64,000 nt of DNA from Paraglaciecola hydrolytica (lineage in GTDB: Bacteria > Pseudomonadota > Gammaproteobacteria > Enterobacterales > Alteromonadaceae), in assembly GCF_001565895.1 (NCBI RefSeq), contig NZ_LSNE01000015.1, forward strand, positions 27,642 to 91,641, in the 5' to 3' direction. The notes under the pieces are model-generated. The model searched no databases. It saw only the letters and a program-made list of their open reading frames with translations, and was not told the origin of the DNA. Shown in pieces: positions 14,961 to 33,851 of the stretch (its first letter is position 1; every line of letters begins with the position of its first letter). The position numbers and the translations under genes are program-made.

Positions 14961-15043
14961 GTTGTTCCTACAAATTACCACAATGTCTCGCCAAGTTAGC
15001 TTAGCTATGTATATAAGAAACGCTCTTGCGAAGCGCCTAAACA

Positions 15044-15339: not shown

Positions 15340-15783
15340 TTAAAATACTGGTGTAGCATCGCCACCGACTTGCTTAGAATTTTCAACTGTTGGTCTGGTG
15401 AGTTTTTCGACCTCACGACGCTCTCTCTCTTCTATGTGTATATCTACGCCTTTGGCGTAACCTTCACCAAATTCCTTAAATTCTTTACAAGCTTTGTAAT
15501 ACTGGCTGCCTTTTTTACCCCGTTCGACACCATTTTCAAAAGTGCAATATGCAATTAAGCCATCCTGAAAACCAGAATAATATTGTTCTTTGTTGGGCGT
15601 GACCCCACCTTTTTTACAGGTTTCTACATATTGATTAAATTGCAAGACATCCGTTGCAGAATTAGCATCGGCTGCACCACGCTCTTGCCAATTGGTGGTT
15701 TTGCACTCTTCAGCAGTCATAGAGGTAGAACCACAAGCAACTAAGCCCAAAATAGATATAAAAATAACGACTAATTTTTTCAT
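15340..15783 (-). CDS. DUF2799 lipoprotein
   Basis: A 147-residue protein with a lipoprotein signal (LVAC at the cleavage site). The mature part has TNWQERGAADA and, later, GFQDGLIAYCTFENGVERGKKG, the spaced G/Y/C pattern of DUF2799. Its function is unknown; it is expected to be anchored to the outer or inner membrane facing the periplasm. It ends in a basic-acidic helix (EERERREVEKL). It appears monocistronic, with its own terminator. Confidence 0.82.
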   Translation of the reverse strand: MKKLVVIFISILGLVACGSTSMTAEECKTTNWQERGAADANSATDVLQFNQYVETCKKGGVTPNKEQYYSGFQDGLIAYCTFENGVERGKKGSQYYKACKEFKEFGEGYAKGVDIHIEERERREVEKLTRPTVENSKQVGGDATPVF

Positions 15784-16014
15784 GTAAATAACCCTTAGTT
15801 AAGCCCAAGTACCTTTCTTATCAGTAATACTTAGGTAAATTTTTGTTAAATTAATATGTTCAAACTGTCTATTGAAAAAGCATATTTTTCAAGTTTTGCT
15901 ATTCAATAAAGTAAAAATTGTCATAGTAAAAATAAAAAACACGACGTATACCGATCTATCTTAATAAATGTCAATTACCTCACGTTAAAACAGACTACCC
16001 GGCAGGCACGTTTT

Positions 16015-16701
16015 TTACATGCCGGAAATAAATGAAGTGAGCGTAAAGCGCCCAGTTCGTGGATCCGTATCAAATGCATAGTCATGGCCGATATTGCCGG
16101 AATGTAAACTGGAACATCGATAAAAGACTATGCGATTAAATTTGGCATCAACGGACATGATGCGCTCATAACAAGGGGAGTCAGCATTCATATACCCCCT
16201 TGGTTGACCTTCTAACTGAAACTCTTGTTGCTGTGTTTGCAGATAACCAGACAACCTCTGTTTATTAATATATTCAAAACCGGTTTTTTTGTGACGATAC
16301 AAGGAGGTTCCTCCGTGTTTTTCATCACATAAGTACAATATCGCAGCGATATCTGTCACTGCGGGTCGATCAAAATGCGGCACTGATTGAAACACAGATA
16401 GTTGCTGTACTGGTGTAGTTACCATGGAAAAATAACTTTCACAGCTTTTTAATGAGTCTGCCGACTGGCTAAAATACGGCGCGATATGAGCCCCAACAAA
16501 ATCGAGTAAGATCTCATTATAACGTTGCGGCGCGGCAGAACGGATCCCCGGATAGAAGCCACGAGCCGGAGCAACTCCACCCGATTGCAAGGCATAATCG
16601 ATAAGTGAATCCGCATTCTGCAAAAAATCATCCACCACTACCACAGGCTGTTTTTCATTGCCCACCAAGTGATGTAGTACTTGATTATCAGGATTAATCA
16701 T
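16015..16701 (-). CDS. DUF6445 family protein, possible 2-oxoglutarate/iron-type oxygenase fold
   Basis: A 228-residue cytoplasmic protein, last gene of the halogenase operon. It has VPHFDRP (an HxD pair) and, 90 or so residues later, SLHSGNIG, then RFTLTSFI. An HxD...H triad followed by a basic residue is the metal/2-oxoglutarate arrangement of prolyl-hydroxylase-like enzymes. DUF6445 proteins are, as I recall, often beside tryptophan-halogenase-family genes and TonB receptors in marine bacteria. Activity and substrate are unknown. Start at ATG 16701, 25 bp after the haloperoxidase-like stop. Confidence 0.68.
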   Translation of the reverse strand: MINPDNQVLHHLVGNEKQPVVVVDDFLQNADSLIDYALQSGGVAPARGFYPGIRSAAPQRYNEILLDFVGAHIAPYFSQSADSLKSCESYFSMVTTPVQQLSVFQSVPHFDRPAVTDIAAILYLCDEKHGGTSLYRHKKTGFEYINKQRLSGYLQTQQQEFQLEGQPRGYMNADSPCYERIMSVDAKFNRIVFYRCSSLHSGNIGHDYAFDTDPRTGRFTLTSFISGM

Positions 16702-16726
16702 CGCTAATACGTCCTGTCAAAATTCA

Positions 16727-18715
16727 CTAGGGCTGCCCTTCAAAATAGGACTTGGCTTTGGCAAAAGCCGCATTACCTATTTTAATCCCCATTAAACGGC
16801 CTGGAATATCATCGGCCGGTGGATGAATACCGCCCCAGATCCGAGATAAACTACATTGGTCTGAAGCATCTTGGTAGGTAGCCCATTGCAGCGTCATATC
16901 AACACTGGGGCCTTTTTCAAAAACCAGAAAGTCATTCGCTTTTATTTCAAAACCACTCATACCTCCGGGGAAATAATTACTGCCGGTTAACGCTGTGAGA
17001 ACTTCAGCCGCCGCCCGAGAATAAGTGGAGTGACCAGAGACATAACCAGCAAAAGGCGGTGTAACAAAAGTGGGGCGTTGGTATGGCCACCAGTTCTCTG
17101 CCAATATCCAACCTACTCCAGCATCGTATTGCACAGGATCAACAACATAATCTGGGCCACGCCATGAGAATAATTTAATTTTACCTACATGCTCATTGTT
17201 TGTTCCAGCTAGTGGGTCACCTACTGCGACCAATTCAATAAAACCTGGCTCCAAAGGAAGACCATTAACGTGATATGAAGCTGCATCAGGATCACTACTT
17301 TGACCAAAGTCTGCCATCGAACGTATCGCCGACACAGGACGTATATAGTCATACCATCCTTTGATTCCCCACGCTGTAATTGCCGCATCATGCATAGCGC
17401 CACCTAGAGTAAAATAGGCCTTAACATCCCATTCCATCGAGCCTAATTCATTCCCTTTCCCCTCATATTTGCGCTCAAATAAGGCATGATCAACAATGGA
17501 ATTAAGTAATACAAACCAATGTCCTGGTGGTGTTTCAGAATTAGGGCCGTCAGCCCAAAATTCTGCCAATACACGAGTATAATCGCCACGGGGAACAATC
17601 TGCGGAGTGTAAGCCTGATTAGTCACTGGATTAATACTATAGCCAATACTGTTATCACCACCTTGTAAGCTGTCGTAAAAATCCTGATATTCGCTAAAAG
17701 ACTCAGGATAGTGTTGGATATTTCCAAGACTAGCCGGTGAAATATCTATCATCACCTTGTCATCAGGACTCAGATGCGATGACCATTTTGCGACAAGTGA
17801 AAAGCCCCATTTGTAATATTCGGCGCTGTCTGTTTCTGCCAAAGGGGGGAGTCCAGGATCGTGATAAATTTGGTAATCATGGCCATCACGCTGAACTACT
17901 TTTTTATCTTCAGGCAGCAAAGCAAAGGGCTCAACATTACCCCATTCAGGACTTAAAAATTCTGAGGCGCCACCGATAACGGCATTACCCGCTTGATCGA
18001 TAAACTCATTCAAAGCTAATGGCTGCCAACGATTCAGATCAATAATATCCGGATTGCCTGGCTGAGACATAATCAAGTCAGGATTCACGTGCTGATAATA
18101 TACATTGGCGTAGTTTACTCTTTCGTTCGCACCGTCCTGCATGCCATATTGAACAATACAATCGGCTATATGATTACCTAAACCAATGGCAGAACCATTG
18201 GTATATAAGCGACTGGTATAGCTGGTATCTAAGCCTAAGTCTGTCATTAGTTTATCGGCTAAACTAAAAATATGATCCACACCGGGAGAGTTTTTAAAAC
18301 GATGTCTGATAATACGATATACCGCAAAACTCAGGGCTTGTTCACGAGCAATTTGTGGATCGCCAACTAGGACGGAAGCATCAAAATCACACCTAAAATC
18401 ACCGTGAGTTTGGCCCAATATAAAGGGCTTTGCAGTTTGAGAATAAGCCGCCCATGCGTCATACATCGCAATACTGACATGATAGAGGTTTCTTGCATGA
18501 ATAGTGGGGCGGGCAAAATCATGACGGATCCCTTCTAATAGTACTTCGTTCCACATCCTTGCTACTGATACAGGTCTATCGTCGGCGACAACAGTCTGAG
18601 GGCGTTGTGGTGTTGGAGTGTTATTGCCACTCTCAGTAGAACCTGAGCCACATCCGCTTAAACTCAATATACAAAAAAAGATAAGAGCAAGGGACTGCAT
18701 CATTATTTTATTCAT
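16727..18715 (-). CDS. Vanadium-dependent haloperoxidase/PAP2-like lipoprotein
   Basis: A 662-residue exported lipoprotein (signal ending LSGC). The vanadate/phosphate pocket of the PAP2-haloperoxidase superfamily is complete: KGWYDYIRP (KxxxxxxRP), YVSGHSTYSRAA (SGH) and SRIWGGIHPPADD (SRxxxxxH). Vanadium haloperoxidases use hydrogen peroxide to oxidise halides to hypohalous acid; the same pocket can act as a phosphatase, and sequence does not separate the two. The lipid anchor puts it in the periplasm or on the outer membrane, where bromide and chloride from seawater are available. AGGAGAG lies 7 bases before the ATG. It is 12 bp after the FG-GAP gene. Confidence 0.84.
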   Translation of the reverse strand: MNKIMMQSLALIFFCILSLSGCGSGSTESGNNTPTPQRPQTVVADDRPVSVARMWNEVLLEGIRHDFARPTIHARNLYHVSIAMYDAWAAYSQTAKPFILGQTHGDFRCDFDASVLVGDPQIAREQALSFAVYRIIRHRFKNSPGVDHIFSLADKLMTDLGLDTSYTSRLYTNGSAIGLGNHIADCIVQYGMQDGANERVNYANVYYQHVNPDLIMSQPGNPDIIDLNRWQPLALNEFIDQAGNAVIGGASEFLSPEWGNVEPFALLPEDKKVVQRDGHDYQIYHDPGLPPLAETDSAEYYKWGFSLVAKWSSHLSPDDKVMIDISPASLGNIQHYPESFSEYQDFYDSLQGGDNSIGYSINPVTNQAYTPQIVPRGDYTRVLAEFWADGPNSETPPGHWFVLLNSIVDHALFERKYEGKGNELGSMEWDVKAYFTLGGAMHDAAITAWGIKGWYDYIRPVSAIRSMADFGQSSDPDAASYHVNGLPLEPGFIELVAVGDPLAGTNNEHVGKIKLFSWRGPDYVVDPVQYDAGVGWILAENWWPYQRPTFVTPPFAGYVSGHSTYSRAAAEVLTALTGSNYFPGGMSGFEIKANDFLVFEKGPSVDMTLQWATYQDASDQCSLSRIWGGIHPPADDIPGRLMGIKIGNAAFAKAKSYFEGQP

Positions 18716-18727
18716 TTCATTGCTCTC

Positions 18728-20506
18728 CTAAGGTTTACTGATAGTTAAACTTTGACCCGAACTCACGTTAGTGCGTAAGGTTTCTGTACCGTCTGGCCAT
18801 ACCACTCGAATAGAGTCCACAATATCAATGGTACCCAAACCAAAAAACTGTGTACTCGGATTTTGTGCCGTAAAATTACTGCCCAGCGTTATTTCGCGCA
18901 TTTGGGTAATACCACCAGCCTTTAAATAAATCCGCGCACCTATGGCAAAACTATTTTTGTGACCTGGCATAGTTAACTTTATGCTTAGGGCATTGTTTTG
19001 CTGAATATCATTGCGAAATAAGCTTGCTGCATTGATTTCATCACGATGCAATTGCAATACATCAATATCACCGTCGTTATCAAAATCAGCGCAAACGACG
19101 GTTCGGCTACTATGGGTATCATTCAAACCTAAATCTGCAGATTTTTCTTCAAAGGTGGCATCCCCTAAGCCCATAAAAACCCGGGTTGTATCAAGGTTAA
19201 AATCGAAAGAAATATTGTTGTCAGAAAAAGAGTAAGGAAATCCATTGGTCATGTAGATATCTAAATTACCATCACTGTCAAAATCAGCGGCGCACGAACC
19301 CCATCCCCAACTCGATTTTTGTTGCGAGGTGCCAGTATTAATGTTGATAGCAGCTAAGACACTCCCATTGGAAAACTGGCCATCCGTATTAAGGTAAAAA
19401 CGATTGCCGATGGGCCATAATGGCCCTGTAATAGCGGACACAAACCAATCTAAATCACCATCGTTATCAAAATCGGCGACGGCTGCCCCCATTCCACTGT
19501 CATCTATAATGACTTTTTCATCAGTGGCATTACTAAAAGATCCATTGCGATTATTTGTCAGCACTCTACTGGTGCTAAAGTCGCCAGTTACTAATAGGTC
19601 AAGCCAGCCATCGTTATTAATGTCGGCAAAATTTGGCGTAAAACTATAGTCATGGTTATCACCTAAAGCGCTACCTGCTTTTGGCTGAATTAAAAGGGCA
19701 GCAGTGACACCAGTGATTTTACTGACATCGGTAAATTTAATATTTCCATCAACTGAATCATTGCGCCATAAATGTCCTGTATCGCCGGGAGCTTCAATAT
19801 CAACGGGATTACCCCAATGAGTTAAAAACATATCGAGATCACCGTCGCCGTCATAATCACCAAAGGCGGATGATAAGGTAAACTGGGTCGATAGAAGATC
19901 AATGCCTGAACCTGAGGTGACATTAGTAAAAGTACCGTCACCGTTGTTGCTATAAATAAAAGCAGGGTCAAATTCGATTCCACCAATAAATAAATCTAAG
20001 TCGCCATCGCCATCCATATCGGCGAAAGTAGGCCCAGAGTGGCGGTAATTTTGACTTGCACTTTTTGTATAGGCTAAGCCCGCTTGCAAGGCCACATCAA
20101 CAAAGTGACCTGTGCCGTCATTTTGATAGAGTAAGTTAGGCCCTATATCGCCACGCACAATGAATACGTCGATATCCCCATCGTTATCATAATCACCTGC
20201 TGCAGCTCCTCCCGCAAAGTCCTCAGGGTGTTGCTGGGATGAATTACCCTCAGCGACTGACTTTGGAAATAAATAACCCTGTTTATAATTAATACCGCTG
20301 CTACTGATTTCAGTGAAGCCATCGCCATAACCAACAACAACTTTAGGTTCTGGTGGGGGTGGGGGTGGAGTGACAGGAGGAAGCGGTGTGGTAACGACAG
20401 GAGGAGATGCAGGCGCAGTGTCACTGCCTCCACATGCCCACAACATAAAACTTAATGCACAACATACGGCGATTTTACTATAGGATTTTTTTATGATTAT
20501 CTTCAT
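18728..20506 (-). CDS. FG-GAP/VCBS-repeat lipoprotein with ASPIC/UnbV C-terminus (CRTAC1-like)
   Basis: A 592-residue lipoprotein (signal ending LWAC, then a proline-rich linker). Seven calcium-binding D-x-D-x-D-G-D loops are spread through the body (for example GDYDNDGDIDVF, ADMDGDGDLDLF, ADFDNDGDIDVL), which predicts a seven-bladed integrin-like beta-propeller. The last 90 residues are an ASPIC/UnbV domain (GARIYLKAGG ... RVVWPDGTE). Such proteins are surface or periplasmic binding scaffolds with no known catalysis. It lies 27 bp from the halogenase upstream and 12 bp from the haloperoxidase-like lipoprotein, so the two lipoproteins are probably made together. Confidence 0.9.
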   Translation of the reverse strand: MKIIIKKSYSKIAVCCALSFMLWACGGSDTAPASPPVVTTPLPPVTPPPPPPEPKVVVGYGDGFTEISSSGINYKQGYLFPKSVAEGNSSQQHPEDFAGGAAAGDYDNDGDIDVFIVRGDIGPNLLYQNDGTGHFVDVALQAGLAYTKSASQNYRHSGPTFADMDGDGDLDLFIGGIEFDPAFIYSNNGDGTFTNVTSGSGIDLLSTQFTLSSAFGDYDGDGDLDMFLTHWGNPVDIEAPGDTGHLWRNDSVDGNIKFTDVSKITGVTAALLIQPKAGSALGDNHDYSFTPNFADINNDGWLDLLVTGDFSTSRVLTNNRNGSFSNATDEKVIIDDSGMGAAVADFDNDGDLDWFVSAITGPLWPIGNRFYLNTDGQFSNGSVLAAININTGTSQQKSSWGWGSCAADFDSDGNLDIYMTNGFPYSFSDNNISFDFNLDTTRVFMGLGDATFEEKSADLGLNDTHSSRTVVCADFDNDGDIDVLQLHRDEINAASLFRNDIQQNNALSIKLTMPGHKNSFAIGARIYLKAGGITQMREITLGSNFTAQNPSTQFFGLGTIDIVDSIRVVWPDGTETLRTNVSSGQSLTISKP

Positions 20507-20533
20507 CTTTTTGCCAATTAAAAACGTGAGGGC

Positions 20534-22054
20534 TTACATGTTCAGAGGTTTAGGCGCTAAACAATAGTGTTGAATAAATTCCTGTTGCGACGGCATCGCT
20601 TCCACGGATTTATCAATCACATTTTTAATAAATGCCATGCGTCGCTTTAACTCATCGTCTGCGACTAAATCCACCAACGGGTGATAACTTTTTGGATGCA
20701 TACCTTGGCCATGAAATACTTCTAACCAACTCGTATCGTTAAATAATTCCATATTAGTGCGATGGATCTGACCGTTTTCCATAAACTGATCGATCTTTTG
20801 TTTCAATGAATCCGGAATAGACATAGTGCGGCAATAATTCCAAAACTCAGAATCACTGCGTTCAGTGGCCTTGTAGTGCAAAATAATAAAGTCTCGAATG
20901 CGCTCATATTCAAAATCAGTTTGCTGATTAAATAAATCGATGTCGTGCTGATTAAAATCCCTATTCGGGAATAAGCTCATTAGTCTTGCAATACCACTTT
21001 GTACGAGATGAATACTGGTTGATTCTAAGGGTTCAATAAAACCGCCAGACAAGCCAAAAGCGACACAATTTTTATTCCATGCTTTGAGGCGTTTTCCGGT
21101 GCTAAATTTCAATAATCTGGGTTCAGCTAAGGCTTTACCCGAAAGGTTTGCCATGAGTATCTCTCGTGCTTCGTCCTCGCCCATAAATTTGCTAGAAAAC
21201 ACATGACCATTGCCAGTACGATGCTGCAAGGGAATTCGCCACTGCCAGCCCGCACTGTGGGCTGTTGAACGAGTGTAAGGTAACAAGGGTTCAGTTCTCT
21301 CACAGGGCACAGCCCAAGCCCTGTCACAAGGCAACCAATGACTCCAATCTTCGAAGCCAGTATTAAGGGCCTTTTCAATCAATAAACCCTGAAACCCGGA
21401 GCAATCAATGAACAGATCGCCTTGCACGATTTCACCGTTATCTAACACCACAGATTCAATAAAGCCATCACTCGCACGCAAACGTGTTTCTACGATCTTA
21501 GCGAGGGTTCTGCTTACCCCACGAGCTCCGGCATACTCGCGTAGGAATTGTGCGTATAGTCCTGCATCAAATTGGTATGCATAGACAATCTTTGATAAGG
21601 GAGAGTTGCCTGCATCCACTGAACGCATAAATTTACCTAAGGGCGCAGCCACCGCATTTAACGAATAAGCTCCGATATCGTCCGCATGTCCCTGTTGGCG
21701 CATTTTCCACCAATAGTGATAAAACTGTAATGAATCCATGTCATTACCGACATCACCAAAGGCATGAATATAGCTATCTCCTACCTTGCCCCAATTGACA
21801 AACTCAATGCCAAGTTTAAAGGTGCCTTGGGTGCGTTTAATAAACTCGTTTTCATCTATCCCCAGAGTGCGGTTAAACACTTGAATTTGTGGGATGGTTG
21901 CCTCACCCACTCCCACCGTAGGAATGTCTTCAGCTTCAATTAATCTAACTTTACAAAAGCTATCTTTTAAAAAACGCCCTAAAGTTGCAGCGGCCATCCA
22001 GCCAGCCGTACCACCGCCAACAATAACGATATTTCTTAGATTTTTATCAGACAC
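20534..22054 (-). CDS. Flavin-dependent tryptophan halogenase family protein (copy B)
   Basis: A 506-residue FAD enzyme of the PrnA/RebH family. It has the FAD motif GGGTAGW (residues 13-19), the lysine-bearing TFKLGIEFVNW segment that matches the catalytic lysine region, the halogenase signature WQWRIP near residue 270, and FIEPLESTSIHL, which carries the flavin/substrate-tunnel glutamates. It should use reduced FAD, oxygen and halide to halogenate an aromatic ring, with a flavin reductase from elsewhere in the genome. The true substrate of the TonB-receptor-linked branch is unknown. It starts 9 bp after the degenerate paralogue ends. Confidence 0.88.
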   Translation of the reverse strand: MSDKNLRNIVIVGGGTAGWMAAATLGRFLKDSFCKVRLIEAEDIPTVGVGEATIPQIQVFNRTLGIDENEFIKRTQGTFKLGIEFVNWGKVGDSYIHAFGDVGNDMDSLQFYHYWWKMRQQGHADDIGAYSLNAVAAPLGKFMRSVDAGNSPLSKIVYAYQFDAGLYAQFLREYAGARGVSRTLAKIVETRLRASDGFIESVVLDNGEIVQGDLFIDCSGFQGLLIEKALNTGFEDWSHWLPCDRAWAVPCERTEPLLPYTRSTAHSAGWQWRIPLQHRTGNGHVFSSKFMGEDEAREILMANLSGKALAEPRLLKFSTGKRLKAWNKNCVAFGLSGGFIEPLESTSIHLVQSGIARLMSLFPNRDFNQHDIDLFNQQTDFEYERIRDFIILHYKATERSDSEFWNYCRTMSIPDSLKQKIDQFMENGQIHRTNMELFNDTSWLEVFHGQGMHPKSYHPLVDLVADDELKRRMAFIKNVIDKSVEAMPSQQEFIQHYCLAPKPLNM

Positions 22055-22063
22055 TCTTTTTCC

Positions 22064-23530
22064 TCACTGAGAACAAAAGGCTTTCAAGTAAGCAGCATGG
22101 TGTGGCGCCGTTTGGGCGGCATGCTGAATAGCTTGTTCAATCTTTTGCTGAATATTTTGTAATTGGCCTATGGGGACTTGTTGCACCATAAGATCTAATT
22201 GTTTTGGTGTATGCGCCAAGCCCATGAGTAGTGACATTTGCTCGTTTACAGAGATGACTTCTTCATCAAACAAAGCCAGTTTGCCACGACTTTGGTACAA
22301 CTTAATTTTATGCACAAGATCAGCAGACAGCTCAGATTGGCCAACTTGTTGCCACAACAGCCCTTGATGACCATCAGCAAGATGCAAATGTAAACACGTG
22401 ACATCTTTAAGTCGTTGATAACGTTGCTGAACTAAACGATTGTATTCTCGTATTAATTGCTTAGCTAAGGGAAACCTCGGGCATTGATCAATAAGTTGAC
22501 GAATTCCCAGCCAACTTACATCGACTTCACTGACACAAAAGCCAGGTAATGTTAACGCGGCATTTCCGATTGCGATGCAATTGGCGACCCAGGGTTCAAG
22601 CATGCATCCATAATGTTGTTGACGAATGACTATATTTTTACTGTCTTGAGTAATGGTTGGGTCGATCGCAGTTGCTCCCGCAAAATAATACTGGCGACAA
22701 CGCTTTTGTTGAGTAGTAATGTCTATCAACCAGCCATCTTGCTTAGCACTAATGGTAGTCAACGGAGCATCTGGCCCAGTAAATGGCAACTCCATAGTTG
22801 CAACATTACAACTGGGGATTTGTTGTTGCCAACTATGAGGCTTTTGCTCTAAGGCTTGCATTAACAAGCCCTTTTCAGTGCAATCAATATAGAGGTCGGC
22901 GGTAAGTATTTGCTTACTTTTCAGTGCTACATTTTTTATCGATAGCTCGCTTGTTGTTAGTTCAAGCTCCTCTAAAGCGTCTTCAATCACCTCAAGACCA
23001 CGACTTATACAAAAGTGTTTAAGCGAATCACGATAAGCATCGGCATCAATATTCCAACCATAAGACAGGCTAGATAATACTGATGTGGGATCAGGCTTTG
23101 GATGGCAAAACTTTGCTGATTTTGCCATTTGCGCACCTAAGCTGTAGGTATCTACGGCCTGTGAAACGCCTATTTGTTGTAAGCGAGCATGTGCCTGTGA
23201 AAATTGCACATTAGCCATGCCTGTGCCGAACTCGCCAAACGCATGGTAAAACTCGTCAGTTTCGCTATTCCAATGTCGAAAATAATTAGCCAGTTTGAAT
23301 GTAGCCTGACTAGAGCGCATAAACTCAGGTTCTGGCATGCCAATCAAGCGCAAAAAGTCCATAAACTCTGGCCGAACTGACATATTGCCTAAAGCGGTGG
23401 CGGGCTCATCCAAAACACAATGACTCACCTTTACACCATATTTGCCAACGCTGGCCAGCAGTGCCGCTGAAGAAATCCAAGCGCTTATGGAATTTCCCAT
23501 TACCACAATATTGTTTGGCAGGTGGCTCAT
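22064..23530 (-). CDS. Degenerate tryptophan-halogenase-family paralogue
   Basis: A 488-residue protein alignable to the two flanking halogenases (SSQATFKLANYF, NIDADAYRDSL, LYIDCTEKGLL, VANCIAIGNAAL), but with key motifs lost. The FAD motif is GNSISAW instead of GGGTAGW, the WxWxIP signature reads GWLIDIT, and the EPLEST segment is absent (TLPGFCVSEVD). The frame is intact with codon use like its neighbours, so it is not a simple pseudogene. It may be a non-catalytic partner or bind something else. It lies 2 bp after copy A and 9 bp before copy B. Confidence 0.82.
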   Translation of the reverse strand: MSHLPNNIVVMGNSISAWISSAALLASVGKYGVKVSHCVLDEPATALGNMSVRPEFMDFLRLIGMPEPEFMRSSQATFKLANYFRHWNSETDEFYHAFGEFGTGMANVQFSQAHARLQQIGVSQAVDTYSLGAQMAKSAKFCHPKPDPTSVLSSLSYGWNIDADAYRDSLKHFCISRGLEVIEDALEELELTTSELSIKNVALKSKQILTADLYIDCTEKGLLMQALEQKPHSWQQQIPSCNVATMELPFTGPDAPLTTISAKQDGWLIDITTQQKRCRQYYFAGATAIDPTITQDSKNIVIRQQHYGCMLEPWVANCIAIGNAALTLPGFCVSEVDVSWLGIRQLIDQCPRFPLAKQLIREYNRLVQQRYQRLKDVTCLHLHLADGHQGLLWQQVGQSELSADLVHKIKLYQSRGKLALFDEEVISVNEQMSLLMGLAHTPKQLDLMVQQVPIGQLQNIQQKIEQAIQHAAQTAPHHAAYLKAFCSQ

Positions 23531-23532
23531 TC

Positions 23533-25080
23533 TTAACGCCTCCCGTATAAATTGAGACTGGCGGAATGAGAATGGGCTTGTCCTTTAAGTAAGGCATTTA
23601 GGGCATTTTTATGCGTAGGTATTGCATCAACACTTTGTTGCAAGTAGTGGCGCATGTTTTGTAATTGCTTGCTGACAGCATCAAAATTTAAGGTTTCAAC
23701 ACGGGGATCGATATTATCAGGAAAATATCCCTGCCCAATAAACACTGACAACCAACTGGGTGTTAAAAATAAACCCGCAGAATATTCCGAAAAATAGCCA
23801 GTTTCTTTAAATAAAGCCATACGTTGCTCAAGTGAGTCCGGTATTGGCATGTCATGACAATAACGCCAAAACGGACTTTTATTAGGGTCACTTAACTTAT
23901 AGTGAAGGATCAAAAAGTCTCTGACTTTCAGATATTCATCTTTAACCACTCGATTAAACTCATCTTCATCAACCGAACTAAAATGCATATCCGGTAACAG
24001 CTCCATTAACTTGTAGATACCAAGCTGAATGAGATAAATACTGGTCGATTCTAAAGGCTCTAAAAAACCACTGGATAATCCAATAGCGACACAGTTTTTG
24101 CTCCAACTTTTTTCATGCATGCCAGTTTTAAAATGTAACTGTTTGGGCTCAGCCATAGGTGCAGCAGGTAAGTTGTTTAATAAAATATCTTGGGCCTGTT
24201 CTTTAGTCATAAATTCAGAACAAAATACATGACCATTACCAATGCGATGTTGCAAAGGAATTTGCCACTGCCAACCGGCATCATGGGCGATAGATTGGGT
24301 ATATGCCAATGGCTCACCTTCCGTTTCGCAGGGTACTGCGATAGCACTGTTGCAAGGTAGCCAATGACTCCAATCTTCAAAGCTAACATTAAGGGCTTTA
24401 TTGATCAGTAATGAACGAAAACCTGAACAATCTATAAACAGATCACCCTTTATCTGCTGCCCATCGTTTAAAATGACAGAAGTAACAAATCCATCAGTGG
24501 CATTTTTAGCCACTTCTGCAATTAAGCCAGTGACACGCTTAACTCCTCTTTGCTCACTGTAAGTTCGCAAATATTGTGCATATAAATTGGCATCTAAGTG
24601 ATAGGCATAAGAAAAACTGGAATAAATCGAGTTAGAACTTTCATCGGGAAAACAAAACTTATTATTTTTTGCCGCTGTGATAGAAAACGAATAATCATCT
24701 AAGGCACTGGTGTCACCCTGATTACGCGCATGTAACCAGTACTGGTGAAAAGGTAGTTTATCAATTTCAAAGCCGTGAGCACCAAAGGGATGAAAATAAT
24801 CTTGGCCTTGGTCACCCCAACCACAAAATTTAATACCAAGTTTAAAGGTCGCTTGAGTCTGGGTTAAAAAATCTTTTTCATCTATTCCAAGCATTTGATT
24901 AAATACTCGAATATGCGGAATTGTGGCTTCACCAACACCTACAGTACCGATTTGCTCTGACTCTACTAAGGTAATTTGACAATGTTTAGGGTCAATAAAA
25001 TTTGATAAGGCCGCTGCTGTCATCCATCCAGCAGTACCTCCACCTACGATCACAATCTGTCGAATTGATTTTTGTTGCAT
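23533..25080 (-). CDS. Flavin-dependent tryptophan halogenase family protein (copy A)
   Basis: A 515-residue FAD-dependent halogenase-family enzyme with GGGTAGW at residues 13-19, ATFKLGIKFCGW, GWQWQIP near residue 268 and FLEPLESTSIYL, all as expected for a catalytic PrnA/RebH-type protein. It is clearly related to copy B (same lengths, many shared blocks such as NVSFEDWSHWLPC versus NTGFEDWSHWLPC), which suggests duplication within the locus. The open frame begins at a TTG at 25086, but the ATG at 25080 has GAAGG about 10 bases upstream. It is the first gene of the six-gene run and lies 227 bp after the receptor, past a terminator-like hairpin. Confidence 0.88.
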   Translation of the reverse strand: MQQKSIRQIVIVGGGTAGWMTAAALSNFIDPKHCQITLVESEQIGTVGVGEATIPHIRVFNQMLGIDEKDFLTQTQATFKLGIKFCGWGDQGQDYFHPFGAHGFEIDKLPFHQYWLHARNQGDTSALDDYSFSITAAKNNKFCFPDESSNSIYSSFSYAYHLDANLYAQYLRTYSEQRGVKRVTGLIAEVAKNATDGFVTSVILNDGQQIKGDLFIDCSGFRSLLINKALNVSFEDWSHWLPCNSAIAVPCETEGEPLAYTQSIAHDAGWQWQIPLQHRIGNGHVFCSEFMTKEQAQDILLNNLPAAPMAEPKQLHFKTGMHEKSWSKNCVAIGLSSGFLEPLESTSIYLIQLGIYKLMELLPDMHFSSVDEDEFNRVVKDEYLKVRDFLILHYKLSDPNKSPFWRYCHDMPIPDSLEQRMALFKETGYFSEYSAGLFLTPSWLSVFIGQGYFPDNIDPRVETLNFDAVSKQLQNMRHYLQQSVDAIPTHKNALNALLKGQAHSHSASLNLYGRR

Positions 25081-25247
25081 CACCAATACACCTTCAAACT
25101 ACACATATGTAAAATGGTTTTTCCGTCGAGAATACTTAAAAATCAGGCTATTGAATAGGAGCAACTACTCTTAGAAATTTAGCTTATTTTTGCCACATTT
25201 TGATTTGACCAATTCATGTGGTCGATTGACTATATAATTTATTACCT

Positions 25248-25284
25248 AAAAAAACTAAAAAGCGCACCACAAGTGGGTGCGCTT
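25248..25284 (-). terminator. Terminator-like hairpin between receptor and halogenase genes
   Basis: A 9-bp stem AAGCGCACC/GGTGCGCTT is followed on the minus strand by a T-rich tail. It lies 23 bp past the receptor stop and 170 bp before the first halogenase. It should end most receptor transcripts, leaving the halogenases to read-through or their own promoter. Confidence 0.82.
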
Positions 25285-25307
25285 GAATAGCTATAACATT
25301 TAAACGC

Positions 25308-28300
25308 TTAGAAGTTAGCTCTAACTGCTAGCGAGTAACGTCTGTCACTTACGTTCCAAGAACGTGGTAACTGATTTGTACCATCCACTAACTGATAGGT
25401 TTCAACTTGCGTATTGAGTAAGTTAACACCTTGCAATACTAATTGAACATTGTCAGTAAGGTTATAACTCACAGAGGCATCCATATACCCTGCTGCTTTA
25501 TTGAAAATGGGCAAATAAGTGATTACGTCACGAGTAGTAACCAAAAACTCTGAACGCCAGTTGTAGGCTATACGTCCAGACCAATCGCCTTTTTCATACA
25601 TAGCAACAAAGTTAGCTGTGTGATCCGATTGGCGCTCTAAAGGTAGTCCATCACCAAATAAAAACTCTTGTGTGCCACCTTCATTGGCAACATCGCCAGC
25701 ATCAAGGTTAGATGAAGGTACTCCACGTGCTTTTATGTAGGAATAGTTGGCTTGTATACCAAAACCATCAAACGGGGCTGGCAACATATCAAAGAATTGT
25801 TGATAGCTAATCTCAACGCCTTTCATGGTTCCGTCACCACCATTTAATGGGCCTGCTACATTCACGGTTTGTGTCACACCAGATGTAGGATTAGTGAATT
25901 CTCTCTCATAAGCTCCGTTAATAAAGAAATTTTTCAAATCTTTATAAAAAACCGAAACTACAAATGAGCCTACATCAGCAAAATACCATTCTAATGACGC
26001 ATCATATTGAATAGATTCCATTGGTTTCAAGTAGGGGTTACCTGCACTCGCCTTCCAACCATAAAGCTGTATGGATGAAGCATCAATTTGTCTGTTTTCT
26101 TTTAAAGGCTCGCCATTGGCATCAAGTCTTGGCTGGCCATTTTCATCCAGTGGAACATAATCTTGCGGAAAATGAGGTGCAAGGAAATCACGTTCAATGG
26201 AATCAGACACGGTACTAATTGAAGTATAGTTACGCATATTACCTAAGTCAGGCAATGCTATGGCTTTAGATACGGCGAAACGTGCCAATAACTCATCAGT
26301 CACATTCACTTTAACATTAAAGCTGGGCAGTACTTTTGTATATGACTGCTCAGCAAAGTTTTCTGTACTTGCATCATTTGCAAACGCAACAACTTCGGCA
26401 GGTAAATAGTTATTTACATCTGATAAGAATTTAGTGCTCGGACCAAACAGATCATAGTCATCTGGATTCCAGTTATTGGGATCGAATCCAGCAGGGAATG
26501 GATCAGCTGGACGTAAATCTGGATACACTGTATTACCGGTGGTCTCAGTACTTATGTTAACTACACGTATACCAAAGTTACCGGCAATACGATGATCAGC
26601 AAAACCATCATAATCAAAATCTAATCTGATATAAGCTGATTTATTTTCTTCAGTCGTATTACTTATTTCATTTGGTCTAAAATAACCGTCTAACTCGTAT
26701 GGCTCACACGTCACATCATCTATGCGTTTGTCTGCTGGTAACCAATCGCCACAGCTATCCACAAAACCAGCAAAGGTCGTACCCCAGTTTGCATAATCAT
26801 CTAATACCGCTGATGAAGGATGCAGCATTTGATTGCCACCTTGAACATCAACAGCACCGCCACGGAAAAGGTTACTCCAATCCACAACATCATATTGACC
26901 TTCTAATCCGGCATTAGTCACCATAGGGCTAGTTAGCCACGCAGCTTCATTATATAAAGGAGCTAGAGCTCCCCAGTTGTACTGTGAGTTTTTAATGTTT
27001 TGTTTGCGTTTTGCATAACGAGCACCAAACATAACTTGAGAAATCACATCATGCTCAGTGTAGTAAGTTGCATCAATTCTTACAGCGTCTGACTCACCTT
27101 TACTGCGCTCATAGTGATCCATCGCATGGTTATACAAATAATTTTGTGGCTGGGTAAAATAATCAGGGGTCGCAAAATCTGAACCATCTTCAGCATATAT
27201 TGCTCGAACATCTTCAGGCACAAATTCCCATGGGCTGATAAAGGATATTTTGGCATGTTCACCTGAGGTATCGTAATACTGATTAGCCCATGTATTTAAA
27301 CCCAAGGTTAAATCATCACTCGTAGTTTTAGCGCTGATGTGTTGTACGTCAGCAACAATTTTTAACGAGTCAGTGGCTTTCCACTCTAAATTTAAAGTTA
27401 AGTCATCAACTAACGAGCTACTCACACTTTTACGTGTTTCTGAGCCCATTTGCTGACCAAAGTTTACCACTTGCGCTCCACCCCAACCATTTGAAGCATG
27501 CAGGTTATGTGGGACATGATTACCATCACCGCGCCAACCATCGGGCACATCTGTTAAATAACCACTGGTAAATACGCCATTGGAATCGAATTCATATTCT
27601 TCACCGGGTATACCCCAAACGCGGTTTTCGTTATTTACACCAACACCGCCAACACCGGTAGAATACTCTTTCCAAGAAAGCTTTGAATCAGAGCGTAAAA
27701 ATTGCAGAGTTGCTGTAAAGGTTTCTTCTGGATTTTCCCATTGTAACGCAGCTGCATAGCCTTTACGTTTGCGGTCATCCGTTTTCATGGTGATAGCAGC
27801 GCCTTGAGGTGTAAGTACACCTTGGTCACCAACTTCCGTGCCTGCTGGGGGATAAGCTAGCGACCCATCATATACATAAGGGTTTTCTGCATATTCAAAT
27901 CCTGGCCAACTATAGTTATTAGTCGTGCGGGGGGCTAATGCACGAAATGCATAAGTCGAAGAACGCATTTGGTGATTGCTTGCTTTAAGTGTTGAATCAG
28001 CGATATTGAACAATACGCCAAATTTACCCGCATCCGTTTTCCAATTATTGCTATACAAGGCAGAAACAGTAGGAGTGGCTTCTTTAACTAAATCCCCCCA
28101 AGTCATATCTGCAGAAACAGAAAACTTCTGACCCTCACTATCAAAAGGCTTACGAGTACGTAAACTCACTGTACCTGCAATACCACCTTCAATCATATCG
28201 GCTGTTTGGTTTTTATAAACGTCTACCCCCGCCATTAACTCTGGCGATACGTCTTGGAACGATAAACCACGACTAGAGTTAGCGGTAAAAGAATCACGGC

Positions 28301-28691
28301 CGTTAAATTCAGAACGTGTTTGGGTCATCCCCCGCACAACCGCTCCTGAACCTTCCACACCAAAATGGTCTGGGTCATTTTTAGCAGCATAACGGTCAAT
28401 AGATACACCGGGCAAGCGTTGCATTGCTTCCAAAACGCTTCTATCCGGCAATGCACCAATATCTTCGGAGGTAATCGCATCAACAAAAGTATTTGCATCT
28501 CGTTTTAAGGCTTGGGCACTGAATAAACTTGCGCGCATACCTTTTACTTCAATTGTTTCAACGTCTGCTTCTTCTGTCGCACTTTGCTCTGCTTCTTGGC
28601 TGTATGCAGTTACGCATACACCCATCATAGCCAGCGCTAATAATGATTTTCTAAAAATAGGCACTTGTGATCTCATTTTTTTTGTAGCCAT
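25308..28691 (-). CDS. TonB-dependent outer-membrane receptor (long, CUT-locus type)
   Basis: A 1127-residue receptor with a signal peptide (ending TAYSQ), a TonB-box-like segment (VETIEVKG), a plug domain (DAITSEDIGALPDRSVLEAMQRLPGVSID, then VRGMTQTRSEFNGR and GGIAGTVSLRTRKPFD) and a C-terminal barrel that ends in an aromatic residue (SLAVRANF). The IxALPDxxVxExLQRxPGVxI-type plug and length over 1000 are typical of receptors in marine carbohydrate-utilisation loci that sit beside tryptophan-halogenase genes. The ligand is unknown; an oligosaccharide or glycoside is the most likely class. An 18-bp palindromic operator lies 105 bp upstream. Confidence 0.93.
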   Translation of the reverse strand: MATKKMRSQVPIFRKSLLALAMMGVCVTAYSQEAEQSATEEADVETIEVKGMRASLFSAQALKRDANTFVDAITSEDIGALPDRSVLEAMQRLPGVSIDRYAAKNDPDHFGVEGSGAVVRGMTQTRSEFNGRDSFTANSSRGLSFQDVSPELMAGVDVYKNQTADMIEGGIAGTVSLRTRKPFDSEGQKFSVSADMTWGDLVKEATPTVSALYSNNWKTDAGKFGVLFNIADSTLKASNHQMRSSTYAFRALAPRTTNNYSWPGFEYAENPYVYDGSLAYPPAGTEVGDQGVLTPQGAAITMKTDDRKRKGYAAALQWENPEETFTATLQFLRSDSKLSWKEYSTGVGGVGVNNENRVWGIPGEEYEFDSNGVFTSGYLTDVPDGWRGDGNHVPHNLHASNGWGGAQVVNFGQQMGSETRKSVSSSLVDDLTLNLEWKATDSLKIVADVQHISAKTTSDDLTLGLNTWANQYYDTSGEHAKISFISPWEFVPEDVRAIYAEDGSDFATPDYFTQPQNYLYNHAMDHYERSKGESDAVRIDATYYTEHDVISQVMFGARYAKRKQNIKNSQYNWGALAPLYNEAAWLTSPMVTNAGLEGQYDVVDWSNLFRGGAVDVQGGNQMLHPSSAVLDDYANWGTTFAGFVDSCGDWLPADKRIDDVTCEPYELDGYFRPNEISNTTEENKSAYIRLDFDYDGFADHRIAGNFGIRVVNISTETTGNTVYPDLRPADPFPAGFDPNNWNPDDYDLFGPSTKFLSDVNNYLPAEVVAFANDASTENFAEQSYTKVLPSFNVKVNVTDELLARFAVSKAIALPDLGNMRNYTSISTVSDSIERDFLAPHFPQDYVPLDENGQPRLDANGEPLKENRQIDASSIQLYGWKASAGNPYLKPMESIQYDASLEWYFADVGSFVVSVFYKDLKNFFINGAYEREFTNPTSGVTQTVNVAGPLNGGDGTMKGVEISYQQFFDMLPAPFDGFGIQANYSYIKARGVPSSNLDAGDVANEGGTQEFLFGDGLPLERQSDHTANFVAMYEKGDWSGRIAYNWRSEFLVTTRDVITYLPIFNKAAGYMDASVSYNLTDNVQLVLQGVNLLNTQVETYQLVDGTNQLPRSWNVSDRRYSLAVRANF

Positions 28692-28795
28692 TACGACTTA
28701 CCTCTTTTTGTGTGATTTAAACCGCTTGCACCCCCTGATATTGGTACAAGTGACTTTTCCAGCCAACAATCTCAAAAACTACAAATGATGAGAGA

Positions 28796-28813
28796 GTTGA
28801 AAACGTTTTCAAC
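28796..28813. promoter_or_regulatory. 18-bp perfect palindromic operator upstream of the TonB receptor
   Basis: GTTGAAAACGTTTTCAAC is a perfect palindrome with a central CG, placed 105 bp before the receptor start, and shares a 12-bp core with the site before the GH3 gene. It fits a LacI-family repressor; none is encoded in this window. Confidence 0.72.
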
Positions 28814-29185
28814 GATTATGCCTTCAGCAATTACCTCAGTCAATTATTCAACATTTTATTAACAAATAATTTTTGTTTGGCATAATCAAATTACAGTTAT
28901 GAATTTTATTTACTTTTTATTACACTTTATTAAGTCGACTATGGTTTTTTACCCCAAAACAGTCAATGGAACTGGCAGATATCTGAAGAATGAAACGATA
29001 TTTCGCAACATTAACTTAACAAAAAACGTTAGATAGTTGAAAACACCTGTTTTAAAAGGAAATTTTTTACTCCGAATGGTGTTTTAGCGGTTTTACTCCC
29101 GCTAATTACGTGTGATTGGAAAAACGTAAACTGCAGCATAAAAACGAAATGTTAGTCATGCTTTTACTGGCACATCCAAATGATT
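28814..29185. other. AT-rich gap between GH115 and receptor promoter
   Basis: 372 bp of AT-rich sequence with no open frame I would support. It contains one half-site-like AGTTGAAAAC (about 29035-29044) resembling the left half of the operator nearby. No clear terminator was seen after the GH115 gene. Confidence 0.5.
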
Positions 29186-32065
29186 TTAAGGTAATTTTCT
29201 ACTTGGTGGCGGCGCTAAGTAACTGGATTTTAGTTCACTTGTAGCAATTACAAGTTTCTGCACAGTTAAACCTGATTCTAATAGGTAAAGTCTTAACTTC
29301 TTTGCGCCAGCTTGAGTTAAATCATGGTGACTGATCACCGCTCTTACCCCATCCTTGACTGATTCTTCCCAACTCACTGCGTTATTTTCAGCTAATACAT
29401 CAATAATCTGCGGTTTTTCATCGTCAAAACCGATAGCAAAACGGATACCTCTGCCTGGTACAAAATTAAGACTGGGCGCTACTATGGTGTGTATTTCAAA
29501 CTTACCTTCAGTAAAAAAGTGCAGAGGATATTCTAAATAAGGGGCTTGAGAAGGCTTATCAACAAAGCTCAACTCAGGCTTGATTAAACCCGTCATAGAC
29601 GACAAAGTACGGCCATGATTAGGAATTTCCTGCCAGTAGGCATCCTTAGCTTGCTGCTGAACAGTTCCACTGCCTGCGTCTAATGAAATATAACCATCAG
29701 CTTCAACAAAGCCATGAATATTGTTATCTGCAGGTTTAAAGGCATTTATCTTGACCTTGGCAGAGCCCCAACCTGTACCTTTAATATCAATGGTGCCTGC
29801 GGCATGCTCGGTTGACAATTGAGACCAATCTATACTGACCCACAAACGTTGCTCAGTGGCGATCTGCGCAGGTCTTGTTGCCAGTTTTATCCAAGGCTCT
29901 GATACCCTAATGTTTACATCAAAGGGTACATTACCTTTATTAAATACATCAATGTAACGCTGTTGTTGGCCGTAGAAATCAAACTTGAGTGGTAAGTTGC
30001 CATTCACTGGCCAAGCCGCAGCACTGCCTTCTACCGCCACGCCCATATCAGCGGCATTAATCGGCTCGTTTAACACAATGTTTGGCATTATATTGGCAGG
30101 CGGATTATTCCAAGTGGTGTAACCAATATGCGGCTGACTCATAAAGTGGTTCCAGCGACCTTTACCTAGTTGATGATATTGCTGTTCAAGTGCTTTATCC
30201 GCAGCAAACCAGTATTTAACTTGTGCTGCATAGTCGTTGCTACTTGCTCTGCCCTGCTCGGCATATAAACGGTTAAGCGCAGCATTATGATTGAGTTCAA
30301 AGATAATTCGGGTGGCTTTTACTGGATGTAAAACCAATTGGAAAAAGGCATCTTTATATTGCTCTGGCATTTTCTCATGGAGGGTTTCTGCTTGTTCAAC
30401 GTAGCTTTGCAATTCTGTTGAGATCCGCGACGCCTCATTGTAATTCAGCACACTGTAAGTATCAGGTTCCATTAATTCAGGTTTACGTCGCCCATTGTGG
30501 CGAGTATAGCCCGTCATTAATTTTTCGATTTGCACTGCATGCTCTGCACCAAACTGCTGGGTGGCCCATTGTTGGCCATATGTTACGAGATTGTCGGCAG
30601 AATAATTTTCTGGGTTCCACGCCATGCGTAGGAAAAAGTCGATGGGGTATTCCATGGGTTTTAAGTCACCCACATTGGTAAGCCAAATTCGGTTAGCTTG
30701 ATAGTCATAGGCCAGGTTCATTTGTTCCCAAATTTTGGTAATAGGAACAGTATTGATCCAACGATAAGAACGCGGCCCACCTACATAATCAAAATGATAG
30801 TACACACCAGCCCCACCGCTACGTTTGCGCTCATCAGGTGTAGGTAAACGGCGTAAATTACCCCAGTTATCATCTGACCATAATAAGGTCACGTCATCAG
30901 GCACCCGCATACCATTTTCATAATAACTCTGTACTTCTTTATACAAGGCCCAAACTTGAGGGACTTGGCTTAATTTGTCTTTACCAAAAGTATCACTAAG
31001 AATTTGCCGTTGAGCAGCGACGATTTTTTCTAATAATGCAATGTTCTCATTTTCGCCCATGGGTTCGTCCGCTTGGCCACGCATACCAAGGGTGTAAACG
31101 CTTTCATAATCACGATGTCGCTGCGCACCTTCTTGCCAGAATTTATAAAGCTTTTTTGGGTTAACCGCATAATCCCATTTGCCATCACGTTCAGCATGCC
31201 ATTCTTTATCCGCCCGCATCATGGGTTCGTGGTGAGAGGTGCTCATCACTATGCCCATGGTATTGGCTAATTGTGGGTTAGCGATATCATCAACATTAAA
31301 CGAATTATTCCACATGGCTGGCCACAAAAAGTTAGCTTTTAAACGCAGTAGTAGCTCAAACACATGTTGATAAAACGCACTGTTGTAATTGCCATATTTT
31401 TCATGCACCCAACTGGATAAAGCTGGCGCTTCGTCATTCAGAAAGATGCCGCGATAACGAACTTTGGGTTGTTGCTGAACTAGGGTATTGGCTTTTACAA
31501 ACAAGGATTTAGCTTGTTTTACAGGTACGTCAGCCCACCAATACCAAGGTGATACACCGATTTTTTCACTTAGGTCATACACACCAAAAATAGCACCACG
31601 CATATCACTACCCGCGACAACCAAGGCTTGTTCAACACCCGCCATAGGCTGATTGATAAGCTGTATTAACATGCCTTCCCATTGGCCATCAATGGCAGAG
31701 ACATCCAATTTACCTGCGGCGACCAGTTGTTGTAATACTACACTGTGTTGCAAGGTACCCACTATAACTATGGATTTTTGTTTGGTTATGGCGGATACCA
31801 GCTCACTAGTTGCACCGCTGACTTTTTGCATATCATTTTGCAAGTTTGTTACTGCTAATTTAAGCCCTTGCGGTTCAGCTTTATCGAGGTAGATAGCTAC
31901 TGCGTTACCATTGTGAACTAAGGGAAAGTCACCTTTTTTACCGGCTAGGCTTACATAATCAGACGCTTGTGCACTAAGCAAAAAACAGCTCACCAACAAC
32001 ACACACCACGTTTTAACGTACATCACTCGTAACAACAAATTTGCATAGACGCTTATTTCTCTCAC
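29186..32065 (-). CDS. GH115 xylan alpha-glucuronidase, exported
   Basis: A 959-residue exported protein matching GH115 along its length: GAIFGVYDLSEKIGVSPWYWWADVPV, YRGIFLNDEAPALSSW, NFLWPAMWNNSFNVDD, MGIVMSTSHHEPMMR and WSDDNWGNLRRLP. The signal peptide core is VKTWCVLLVSCFLLSAQA. GH115 enzymes remove (4-O-methyl)glucuronic acid from xylan side chains. The start is a GTG abutting the TAG of the GH43 gene, with AGGTGG 5 bases upstream; an ATG 14 codons later also gives a good signal peptide but has no ribosome binding site. It is last in the ExoP_C-GH9-GH43-GH115 operon. Confidence 0.93.
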   Translation of the reverse strand: MREISVYANLLLRVMYVKTWCVLLVSCFLLSAQASDYVSLAGKKGDFPLVHNGNAVAIYLDKAEPQGLKLAVTNLQNDMQKVSGATSELVSAITKQKSIVIVGTLQHSVVLQQLVAAGKLDVSAIDGQWEGMLIQLINQPMAGVEQALVVAGSDMRGAIFGVYDLSEKIGVSPWYWWADVPVKQAKSLFVKANTLVQQQPKVRYRGIFLNDEAPALSSWVHEKYGNYNSAFYQHVFELLLRLKANFLWPAMWNNSFNVDDIANPQLANTMGIVMSTSHHEPMMRADKEWHAERDGKWDYAVNPKKLYKFWQEGAQRHRDYESVYTLGMRGQADEPMGENENIALLEKIVAAQRQILSDTFGKDKLSQVPQVWALYKEVQSYYENGMRVPDDVTLLWSDDNWGNLRRLPTPDERKRSGGAGVYYHFDYVGGPRSYRWINTVPITKIWEQMNLAYDYQANRIWLTNVGDLKPMEYPIDFFLRMAWNPENYSADNLVTYGQQWATQQFGAEHAVQIEKLMTGYTRHNGRRKPELMEPDTYSVLNYNEASRISTELQSYVEQAETLHEKMPEQYKDAFFQLVLHPVKATRIIFELNHNAALNRLYAEQGRASSNDYAAQVKYWFAADKALEQQYHQLGKGRWNHFMSQPHIGYTTWNNPPANIMPNIVLNEPINAADMGVAVEGSAAAWPVNGNLPLKFDFYGQQQRYIDVFNKGNVPFDVNIRVSEPWIKLATRPAQIATEQRLWVSIDWSQLSTEHAAGTIDIKGTGWGSAKVKINAFKPADNNIHGFVEADGYISLDAGSGTVQQQAKDAYWQEIPNHGRTLSSMTGLIKPELSFVDKPSQAPYLEYPLHFFTEGKFEIHTIVAPSLNFVPGRGIRFAIGFDDEKPQIIDVLAENNAVSWEESVKDGVRAVISHHDLTQAGAKKLRLYLLESGLTVQKLVIATSELKSSYLAPPPSRKLP

Positions 32066-33811: not shown

Positions 33812-33851
33812 ATTTTACTACTCATAAAAAAAGGAATATAAAACCTGCAAA

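Follow-up and report, generated by a model that had tools for sequence, protein, structure and literature searches.

Halogenases linked to TonB-dependent receptors have been described in earlier work, as have TonB-receptor glycan utilisation loci of Proteobacteria, which we take to be those named CUT or PUL type. Among the flavin-dependent halogenases (FDHs) of the tryptophan halogenase family, BrvH brominates indole; in the available part of their report, its authors consider that the natural substrate may be something other than indole and that larger molecules could enter (PMC5945002). No native substrate is known for BrvH or the Xanthomonas FDHs, according to the available parts of two reports (PMC7336383, PMC5945002). 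The locus considered here lies in a 64 000-nucleotide stretch of Paraglaciecola hydrolytica DNA (the window), in which a minus-strand run of six genes, with intergenic gaps of 2, 9, 27, 12 and 25 bp by open reading frame (ORF) reading, stands downstream of a TonB-dependent receptor. The order, 5' to 3', is receptor, FDH1, pseudo-FDH, FDH2, FG-GAP protein, haloperoxidase and DUF6445 protein:

25308..28691, minus strand: TonB-dependent receptor, TIGR01782 (Xanthomonas/Caulobacter) type (629.9 bits, cut-off 310)
23533..25086, minus strand: FDH1, intact FDH family member (Pfam Trp_halogenase, 622 bits)
22064..23530, minus strand: pseudo-FDH, degenerate FDH homologue (Pfam Trp_halogenase, 223 bits)
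20534..22054, minus strand: FDH2, intact FDH family member (Pfam Trp_halogenase, 653 bits)
18728..20506, minus strand: FG-GAP/UnbV_ASPIC beta-propeller lipoprotein, CRTAC1-like, module B (FG-GAP_3 146.6 bits, UnbV_ASPIC 62.3 bits)
16727..18715, minus strand: vanadium haloperoxidase-family lipoprotein, module B (Pfam DUF6851 and VCPO_2nd, vanadate pocket, predicted fold)
16015..16701, minus strand: DUF6445 protein, last gene of module A (PF20043, 255.6 bits)

The single direction, the gaps and the families given in an initial annotation of this DNA all agree with ORF reading and Pfam. With slightly better than even confidence, we read the receptor and the run as a receptor-linked halogenation locus made of two modules, A (receptor, FDH1, pseudo-FDH, FDH2 and DUF6445) and B (the FG-GAP protein and the haloperoxidase), with the mechanism proposed below. 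Gene content, motifs, conservation, module boundaries and the recurrence of FDHs beside module B are observed, and the localisation, the heteromer, the chemistry in vivo, the target and the direction of the change are proposed. The arrangement is not a chance one, because its parts are conserved in related genomes. The matches listed by a literature search include no paper on linkage of an FDH with a haloperoxidase, of an FG-GAP protein with a haloperoxidase, or of an FDH with a pseudo-FDH.

Module A and the degenerate halogenase twin

A receptor search gave matches at E <= 1e-180 in 16 of 246 genomes of the family, the window's own included, and the 15 related receptor loci were read over 18–19.5 kb each. 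Seven contain the complete order receptor, FDH1, pseudo-FDH, FDH2, DUF6445; the initial expectation that DUF6445 would stand beside halogenases in relatives is borne out by its position after FDH2 in these loci. Of the other eight, three lack DUF6445 only, three carry FDH2 alone, one carries FDH1 with pseudo-FDH and one is rearranged. FDH2 and DUF6445 are separated by -32 to +16 bp in the seven complete loci, compared with 3832 bp in the window, and an FG-GAP or haloperoxidase match occurs in none of the 15 stretches. A GH115 gene (glycoside hydrolase family 115) lies inside the fetched flank of five of the 15 receptors. On these comparisons, module A is conserved in this bacterial family as a cassette accessory to a receptor of glycan-uptake type.

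Two genomes of the same genus have a syntenic site. In G292 (L285) this reads GH3-DUF6445-FDH2-pseudo-FDH-FDH1-receptor-GH43-GH9-Exop_C-enolase, the GH3 directly beyond DUF6445 being 73% identical to that of the window and the enolase 87% identical. In G585 (L160, L286 and L287) it reads PolB-GGDEF-cassette-Exop_C-YaaA, L160 being one of the seven complete loci. At both sites the cassette lacks the FG-GAP and haloperoxidase genes, and in G585 modules A and B occupy two separate places. The simplest reading is that the FG-GAP and haloperoxidase genes were inserted between FDH2 and DUF6445 in the window lineage; their loss elsewhere would be a less simple account.

FDH1 keeps the motifs GGGTAGW, VGEATIP and WQWQIP, Lys82 and an EPLEST stretch with Glu346, and FDH2 keeps those of the family (GxGxxG, WxWxIP and the catalytic Lys and Glu), as expected of FDHs. 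The catalytic role of the two residues is presumed from PrnA. The nearest solved structures to FDH1 are 9luq, 6frl and 6y1w, the last two of which we take to be BrvH and Xcc4156, and its location is presumed to be cytoplasmic. Across the cassettes, FDH1 and FDH2 retain all motifs wherever the stretch is present (FDH1 of L159 is cut off at the N-terminus and FDH2 of L031 contains an unread stretch).

The window pseudo-FDH has lost GxGxxG, VGEATIP, WxWxIP and the catalytic Glu and has kept the Lys; by its motifs it is a family homologue that would not be expected to be active. The same four elements are absent in all 16 cassettes, and the Lys is lost in 15, while some copies keep GxG. Seven of eight pseudo-FDHs outside the window pass the Pfam Trp_halogenase cut-off. 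In 55 pairwise comparisons among eleven loci, pseudo-FDH averages 25% identity, FDH1 53% and FDH2 66%, and the window pseudo-FDH is 15–22% identical to the other copies. A profile search for FDH1 over the 246 family genomes (at most six candidates scored per genome, the 30 best loci taken as DNA) found pseudo-FDH directly 3' of FDH1 in 28 of the 30 loci, at a gap of -142 to +43 bp; 27 of these 28 frames exceed 400 aa and one is of 106 aa. The two genes, as called, overlap by 4 bp in six of the 16 cassettes. The ratio of non-synonymous to synonymous substitution rates (dN/dS) is 0.075–0.091 for FDH1 and 0.02–0.05 for FDH2 (three pairs each), with dS of 0.7–2.9 across all pairs. For pseudo-FDH the ratio is 0.14–0.25 in the four computable pairs, a rough value because dS exceeds 1 in all four and could not be computed in the others. 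The twin seems to be under purifying selection on this rough measure.

Lost motifs and low identity between the window copy and the others would suit a decaying pseudogene. Yet an open frame persists after 28 of the 30 FDH1 relatives, nearly always at more than 400 aa, and dN/dS, rough as it is, points the same way; decay was rejected and is scarcely credible. The gene is thus a degenerate paralogue, as initially annotated, in the sense of its lost motifs and not of decay. A search for the degenerate FDH at E <= 1e-70 in 394 genomes recovered it from its own genome only, at a threshold too strict for a gene of about 20% identity. The natural inference from this conserved pairing would be that FDH1 and pseudo-FDH form a heteromer. 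A conserved inactive twin is a possible reason why FDH1-type enzymes are hard to assign, as the partner may be missing in assays.

Genome-wide, 22 distinct proteins of the Trp_halogenase family were counted from 26 match rows; two of the proteins take up two rows apiece, and remote flavoproteins account for two. The four degenerate members each directly adjoin an intact one, and a receptor adjoins FDHs in nine of the genome's eleven FDH loci.

Three DUF6445 genes are present in this genome, two of them in FDH loci. His-x-Asp, His and Arg (HxD..H..R) are kept in 11 of 11 DUF6445 sequences, presumably as the pattern of 2-oxoglutarate (2OG)-Fe(II) oxygenases. Alignment by hhalign to two sets of 2OG-oxygenases from relatives gave probabilities of 5% and 31%, with controls of 97% between the two sets and 0.4% for SapC and Cupin_8. 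The structure model (predicted local distance difference test, pLDDT, 44.6, from a two-row alignment) was not used. A DUF6445 gene at 8231-8947 of L041 stands in a receptor locus without an FDH match, so that DUF6445 may act without an FDH. Another, at 43-765 of L078 (the same locus as L205), is at the contig start, some 2 kb away from an FG-GAP gene paired with a haloperoxidase gene.

A third receptor-linked FDH arrangement comprises receptor, SapC, Cupin_8 (JmjC-like), FDH and DUF6445. It is complete in L035 and, by similarity, in L154, and parts of it occur in L032, L039, L147, L152, L153, L155 and L157. A lone SapC gene lies at 51422-52183 of the window.

Module B and the halogenases beside it

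Seven D-x-D/N-x-D-G calcium-loop-like motifs can be read directly in the FG-GAP protein, in which Pfam finds five FG-GAP_3 stretches and one FG-GAP. The repeats are followed by an ASPIC domain, the architecture of CRTAC1/UnbV_ASPIC proteins, and 9etn, cartilage acidic protein 1, is a solved relative. Lipobox-like motifs are present in both module B proteins (LWAC in the FG-GAP protein, LSGC in the haloperoxidase).

The haloperoxidase has the pocket of the vanadium-dependent enzymes (Lys-x6-Arg-Pro, Ser-Gly-His and Ser-Arg-x5-His). Lys452, Arg459, Ser560-Gly561-His562, Arg625 and His631, together with Trp449 and Phe555, are invariant in 107 of 107 sequences, and the pocket residues were likewise found in 80 of 80 sequences. 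The structure model (pLDDT 76.9, residues 517–556 poorly modelled) is closest to bacterial vanadium haloperoxidases (4cit, Z 24.4; 9l8x, 24.1; 3w35, 23.7), followed by the fungal enzyme (Z 19–20), algal bromoperoxidases (10–12) and acid phosphatases (about 10). The predicted fold is that of a haloperoxidase rather than of a small PAP2 phosphatase, and a phosphatase reading is disfavoured by this fold and the intact pocket. The near folds include NapH3, a homologue of haloperoxidases whose chemistry is different.

The haloperoxidase is single-copy in its own genome. It was found in 31 of 395 family genomes, and the order search gave 3 of 394, own genome included in both. A genome-contig scan for relatives, from which the best 80 of 570 were used, gave titles of Gammaproteobacteria, Bacteroidota and others. 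L055, in which the haloperoxidase is not in one frame, was left out, giving 79 readable relatives from these best 80; in 29 of the 79 an N-terminal FG-GAP/ASPIC domain is fused to the haloperoxidase (a 14-bit match in L079 was not counted as fusion). A separate FG-GAP match occurs in 19 of the best 80 loci, a 15-bit match in L112 included. Where the FG-GAP gene is separate (24 family loci), it lies less than 400 bp from the haloperoxidase gene in 22. Given the fusion, the intact pocket and the predicted fold, the FG-GAP protein and the haloperoxidase look like a working pair. The fusion would mean that, in this subfamily, many of the bacterial envelope haloperoxidases are partnered by a propeller.

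Some variants of this pair were seen. In L060 and L072, a single haloperoxidase gene is flanked by an FG-GAP gene on both sides, and the FG-GAP-fused haloperoxidases of L059, L061, L212 and L221 are of about 1760–1815 aa. L059 (titled Proteobacteria) and L061 (titled Dehalococcoidia) are almost the same, so that one bin may be mislabelled.

An FDH adjoins module B in nine of 34 family haloperoxidase loci other than the window, in each case no more than 81 bp from FG-GAP, and the prediction that FG-GAP and haloperoxidase genes would be found beside halogenases in relatives holds in these loci. Halogenase-family genes are numerous in these genomes, with 171 FDHs in the 22 that bear the haloperoxidase (101 Mb); from this density 0.9 FDH-bearing loci would be expected among the 34 (binomial tail 1.8e-7, kinship ignored). 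Receptor, FDH, FG-GAP and haloperoxidase genes are colinear in L190, L195 and L202, and L216 has FDH, FG-GAP and haloperoxidase in this order at a contig end. In L204, L206 and L210 the FG-GAP and haloperoxidase genes are convergent with the FDH. In L218 and L219, receptor, FDH and FG-GAP follow in order, and the haloperoxidase gene faces them tail to tail from the other strand. The linkage of a presumably cytoplasmic halogenase with a putative envelope haloperoxidase is therefore recurrent among these genomes.

In an FG-GAP tree, FDH-linked members fall in three places, the window counted (this tree and the FDH tree are midpoint-rooted FastTree trees, and genomes found by two routes entered the FG-GAP tree once). 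In small unrooted iqtree2 trees of subsets, FDH, FG-GAP and receptor share a deep split; the haloperoxidase of L218/L219 groups with that of L216 (support 92). The haloperoxidase appears to have been exchanged in L218/L219 while the association was kept. In L214 and L215, receptor, FG-GAP and haloperoxidase are colinear without an FDH and group with FDH-bearing loci, possibly reflecting halogenase loss.

By Pfam, the neighbours of L204 and L216 are chitobiose/glucosamine genes (GH20, amidohydrolase, kinase type, glucosamine isomerase), and those of L190 are a starch-binding-type lipoprotein and a major facilitator superfamily (MFS) transporter. Judged by sequence starts and lengths only, L206 and L210 are like L204, and L195, L202, L214 and L215 are like L190.

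Glycan context, proposed mechanism and alternatives

Glycoside hydrolase genes flank the window locus on both sides, with GH115, GH43 and GH9 on one side of the receptor and GH3 beyond DUF6445 on the other:

29186..32065, minus strand: GH115 (alpha-glucuronidase family), glycan context (Pfam, 514 bits)
32066..35636, minus strand: GH43 and GH9 glycoside hydrolases, glycan context (Pfam)
12420..14981, minus strand: GH3 glycoside hydrolase, glycan context (Pfam)
25260..25284, minus strand: terminator-like hairpin with T-rich tail, between receptor and FDH1 (9-pair stem, 6 G-C)

A TIGR01782 receptor with glycoside hydrolases is what defines a TonB-receptor glycan utilisation locus, and from these families the window locus looks like one of glucuronoxylan type. 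No non-ribosomal peptide synthetase (NRPS), polyketide synthase (PKS) or aromatic-degradation family was found in the 30 Pfam-scanned window ORFs (of 42 of at least 120 aa), so that the NRPS or PKS of a halogenated natural product gene cluster is absent from these. Rfam gave no match at gathering score in 15000-30000 of the window. A recent foreign island was also considered and rejected, with G+C of 0.37–0.46 across 12000-36000 and no plasmid match.

In the proposed mechanism, FDH1 and FDH2 would be cytoplasmic enzymes that use reduced FAD, oxygen and halide. FDH1 would pair with pseudo-FDH, probably forming a heteromer whose substrate is selected or held by the fast-evolving twin. Module B would be an envelope lipoprotein pair, in which the haloperoxidase makes hypohalous acid from peroxide and halide and the FG-GAP propeller places it on its target. 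Insertion of module B between FDH2 and DUF6445 would have brought both modules beside one receptor in the window lineage. The same association occurs with three kinds of glycan locus, and so the glycan is unlikely to be halogenated. The cytoplasmic enzymes would most likely act instead on a polypeptide or an indole-type compound associated with the receptor system; our best guess, by inference only, is that such receptors share a polypeptide or aromatic partner and that this is what is halogenated. A more specific version is improbable as it stands: FDH1 and its inactive twin would be a heteromeric halogenase fixing a protein target before export (for example, tryptophans of the receptor or a partner lipoprotein), and the FG-GAP-haloperoxidase would then modify the same receptor complex at the surface. 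If true, an uptake machine would be modified with halogen from two sides, independently of the glycan.

Several observations weigh against the two-module locus. None of the examined relatives has module A joined to module B, so that the full combination rests on one genome; of the initial idea that all six families co-occur, what stands is that the two modules each recur. Twenty-five of the 34 module B loci have no FDH in the fetched flank, some flanks stopping at a contig end, and module B can therefore probably work without an FDH. The nine module-B-linked FDHs belong to a clade separate from FDH1 and FDH2, one that also takes in three FDHs of the window's own genome without module B; they fall in two related groups and are thus not nine separate events. 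The two lowest-scoring of the 30 FDH1 loci lack the twin, and three of the 28 twins, though motif-less, fit the intact-FDH profile better than that of pseudo-FDH. Finally, the terminator-like hairpin (25284-25260) separates the receptor from FDH1 within a gap of 221 bp, in a region where such sites are no more numerous than in shuffles. The receptor and the six genes need not, therefore, share one full-length transcript. A hairpin with a T tract is visible by eye in nine of 13 other folded receptor-FDH1 gaps (L148, L149, L151, L152, L154, L158, L160, L037 and L038), which would fit partial read-through from the receptor into the enzyme genes. Such hairpins may set the ratio of receptor to enzymes.

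The absence of FDHs from most module B loci also bears on an unlikely but serious alternative, that module B is a stand-alone envelope haloperoxidase (for peroxide removal, antimicrobial hypohalite or signal quenching during particle feeding), which merely shares glycan-induced expression with the halogenase cassette and has no common target with it. That the window is the sole locus seen with A and B together fits this, as do the Bacteroidota-labelled relatives, mostly without FG-GAP or FDH nearby. It accords poorly with the adjoining FDHs in nine of 34 loci, ten times expectation, and with the deep split shared by FDH, FG-GAP and receptor, although the haloperoxidase of two loci groups elsewhere. 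In the initial annotation, a single compound was thought to enter through the receptor and to be halogenated on either side of the membrane, outside by the haloperoxidase and inside by the FDHs. The recurring receptor-FDH-FG-GAP-haloperoxidase neighbourhoods, colinear in three loci, and the intact active sites would suit it, but the receptors accompany genes for at least three glycan types. The loci look glucuronoxylan-, chitobiose- or starch-type with no obvious aromatic target, and the scanned window ORFs hold none of the NRPS, PKS or aromatic-degradation families; the idea is left unsupported and we regard it as quite improbable.

It is likewise improbable that the chemistry is other than halogenation, the FDHs being flavin monooxygenases and the haloperoxidase an acid phosphatase or other enzyme. 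This draws on the native substrates stated to be unknown in the available parts of the reports on BrvH and the Xanthomonas FDHs (PMC7336383, PMC5945002), and on NapH3 as a near fold. Against it stand the catalytic Lys and Glu retained in FDH1 and FDH2, the bromination of indole in the available part of the BrvH report (PMC5945002), and Z of about 10 for acid phosphatases compared with 23–24 for bacterial haloperoxidases, although algal bromoperoxidases, which are true haloperoxidases, also reach only 10–12. The two-module locus remains the reading that we prefer.

On that reading, FDH1 and FDH2 share the motifs of PrnA, RebH, BrvH and Xcc4156, and BrvH likewise has a second FDH gene beside it, according to the available part of its report (PMC5945002). 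Unlike these enzymes, the window FDHs are linked to a receptor, no biosynthetic cluster was seen, and a degenerate twin stands directly after FDH1; the literature matches listed contain no description of such a twin. The haloperoxidase shares the complete vanadate pocket and predicted fold of the vanadium-dependent haloperoxidases (NapH1, XhnO11, the bacterial iodoperoxidase 4cit and Curvularia chloroperoxidase), at about 20% identity to the solved enzymes; it differs from them as a putative lipoprotein with an FG-GAP/ASPIC neighbour or fusion, in glycan-uptake loci. The FG-GAP protein has the repeats and ASPIC domain of the CRTAC1/UnbV_ASPIC proteins and, unlike CRTAC1, adjoins a haloperoxidase or forms its N-terminal domain. 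The inactive twin and the FG-GAP-haloperoxidase fusion would tie halogen chemistry to glycan uptake and not to antibiotic making. With the TonB-receptor glycan utilisation loci of Proteobacteria the window shares a TIGR01782 receptor with GH115, GH43, GH9 and GH3; accessory genes for FDH, pseudo-FDH, DUF6445 and the two module B proteins set it apart from them.

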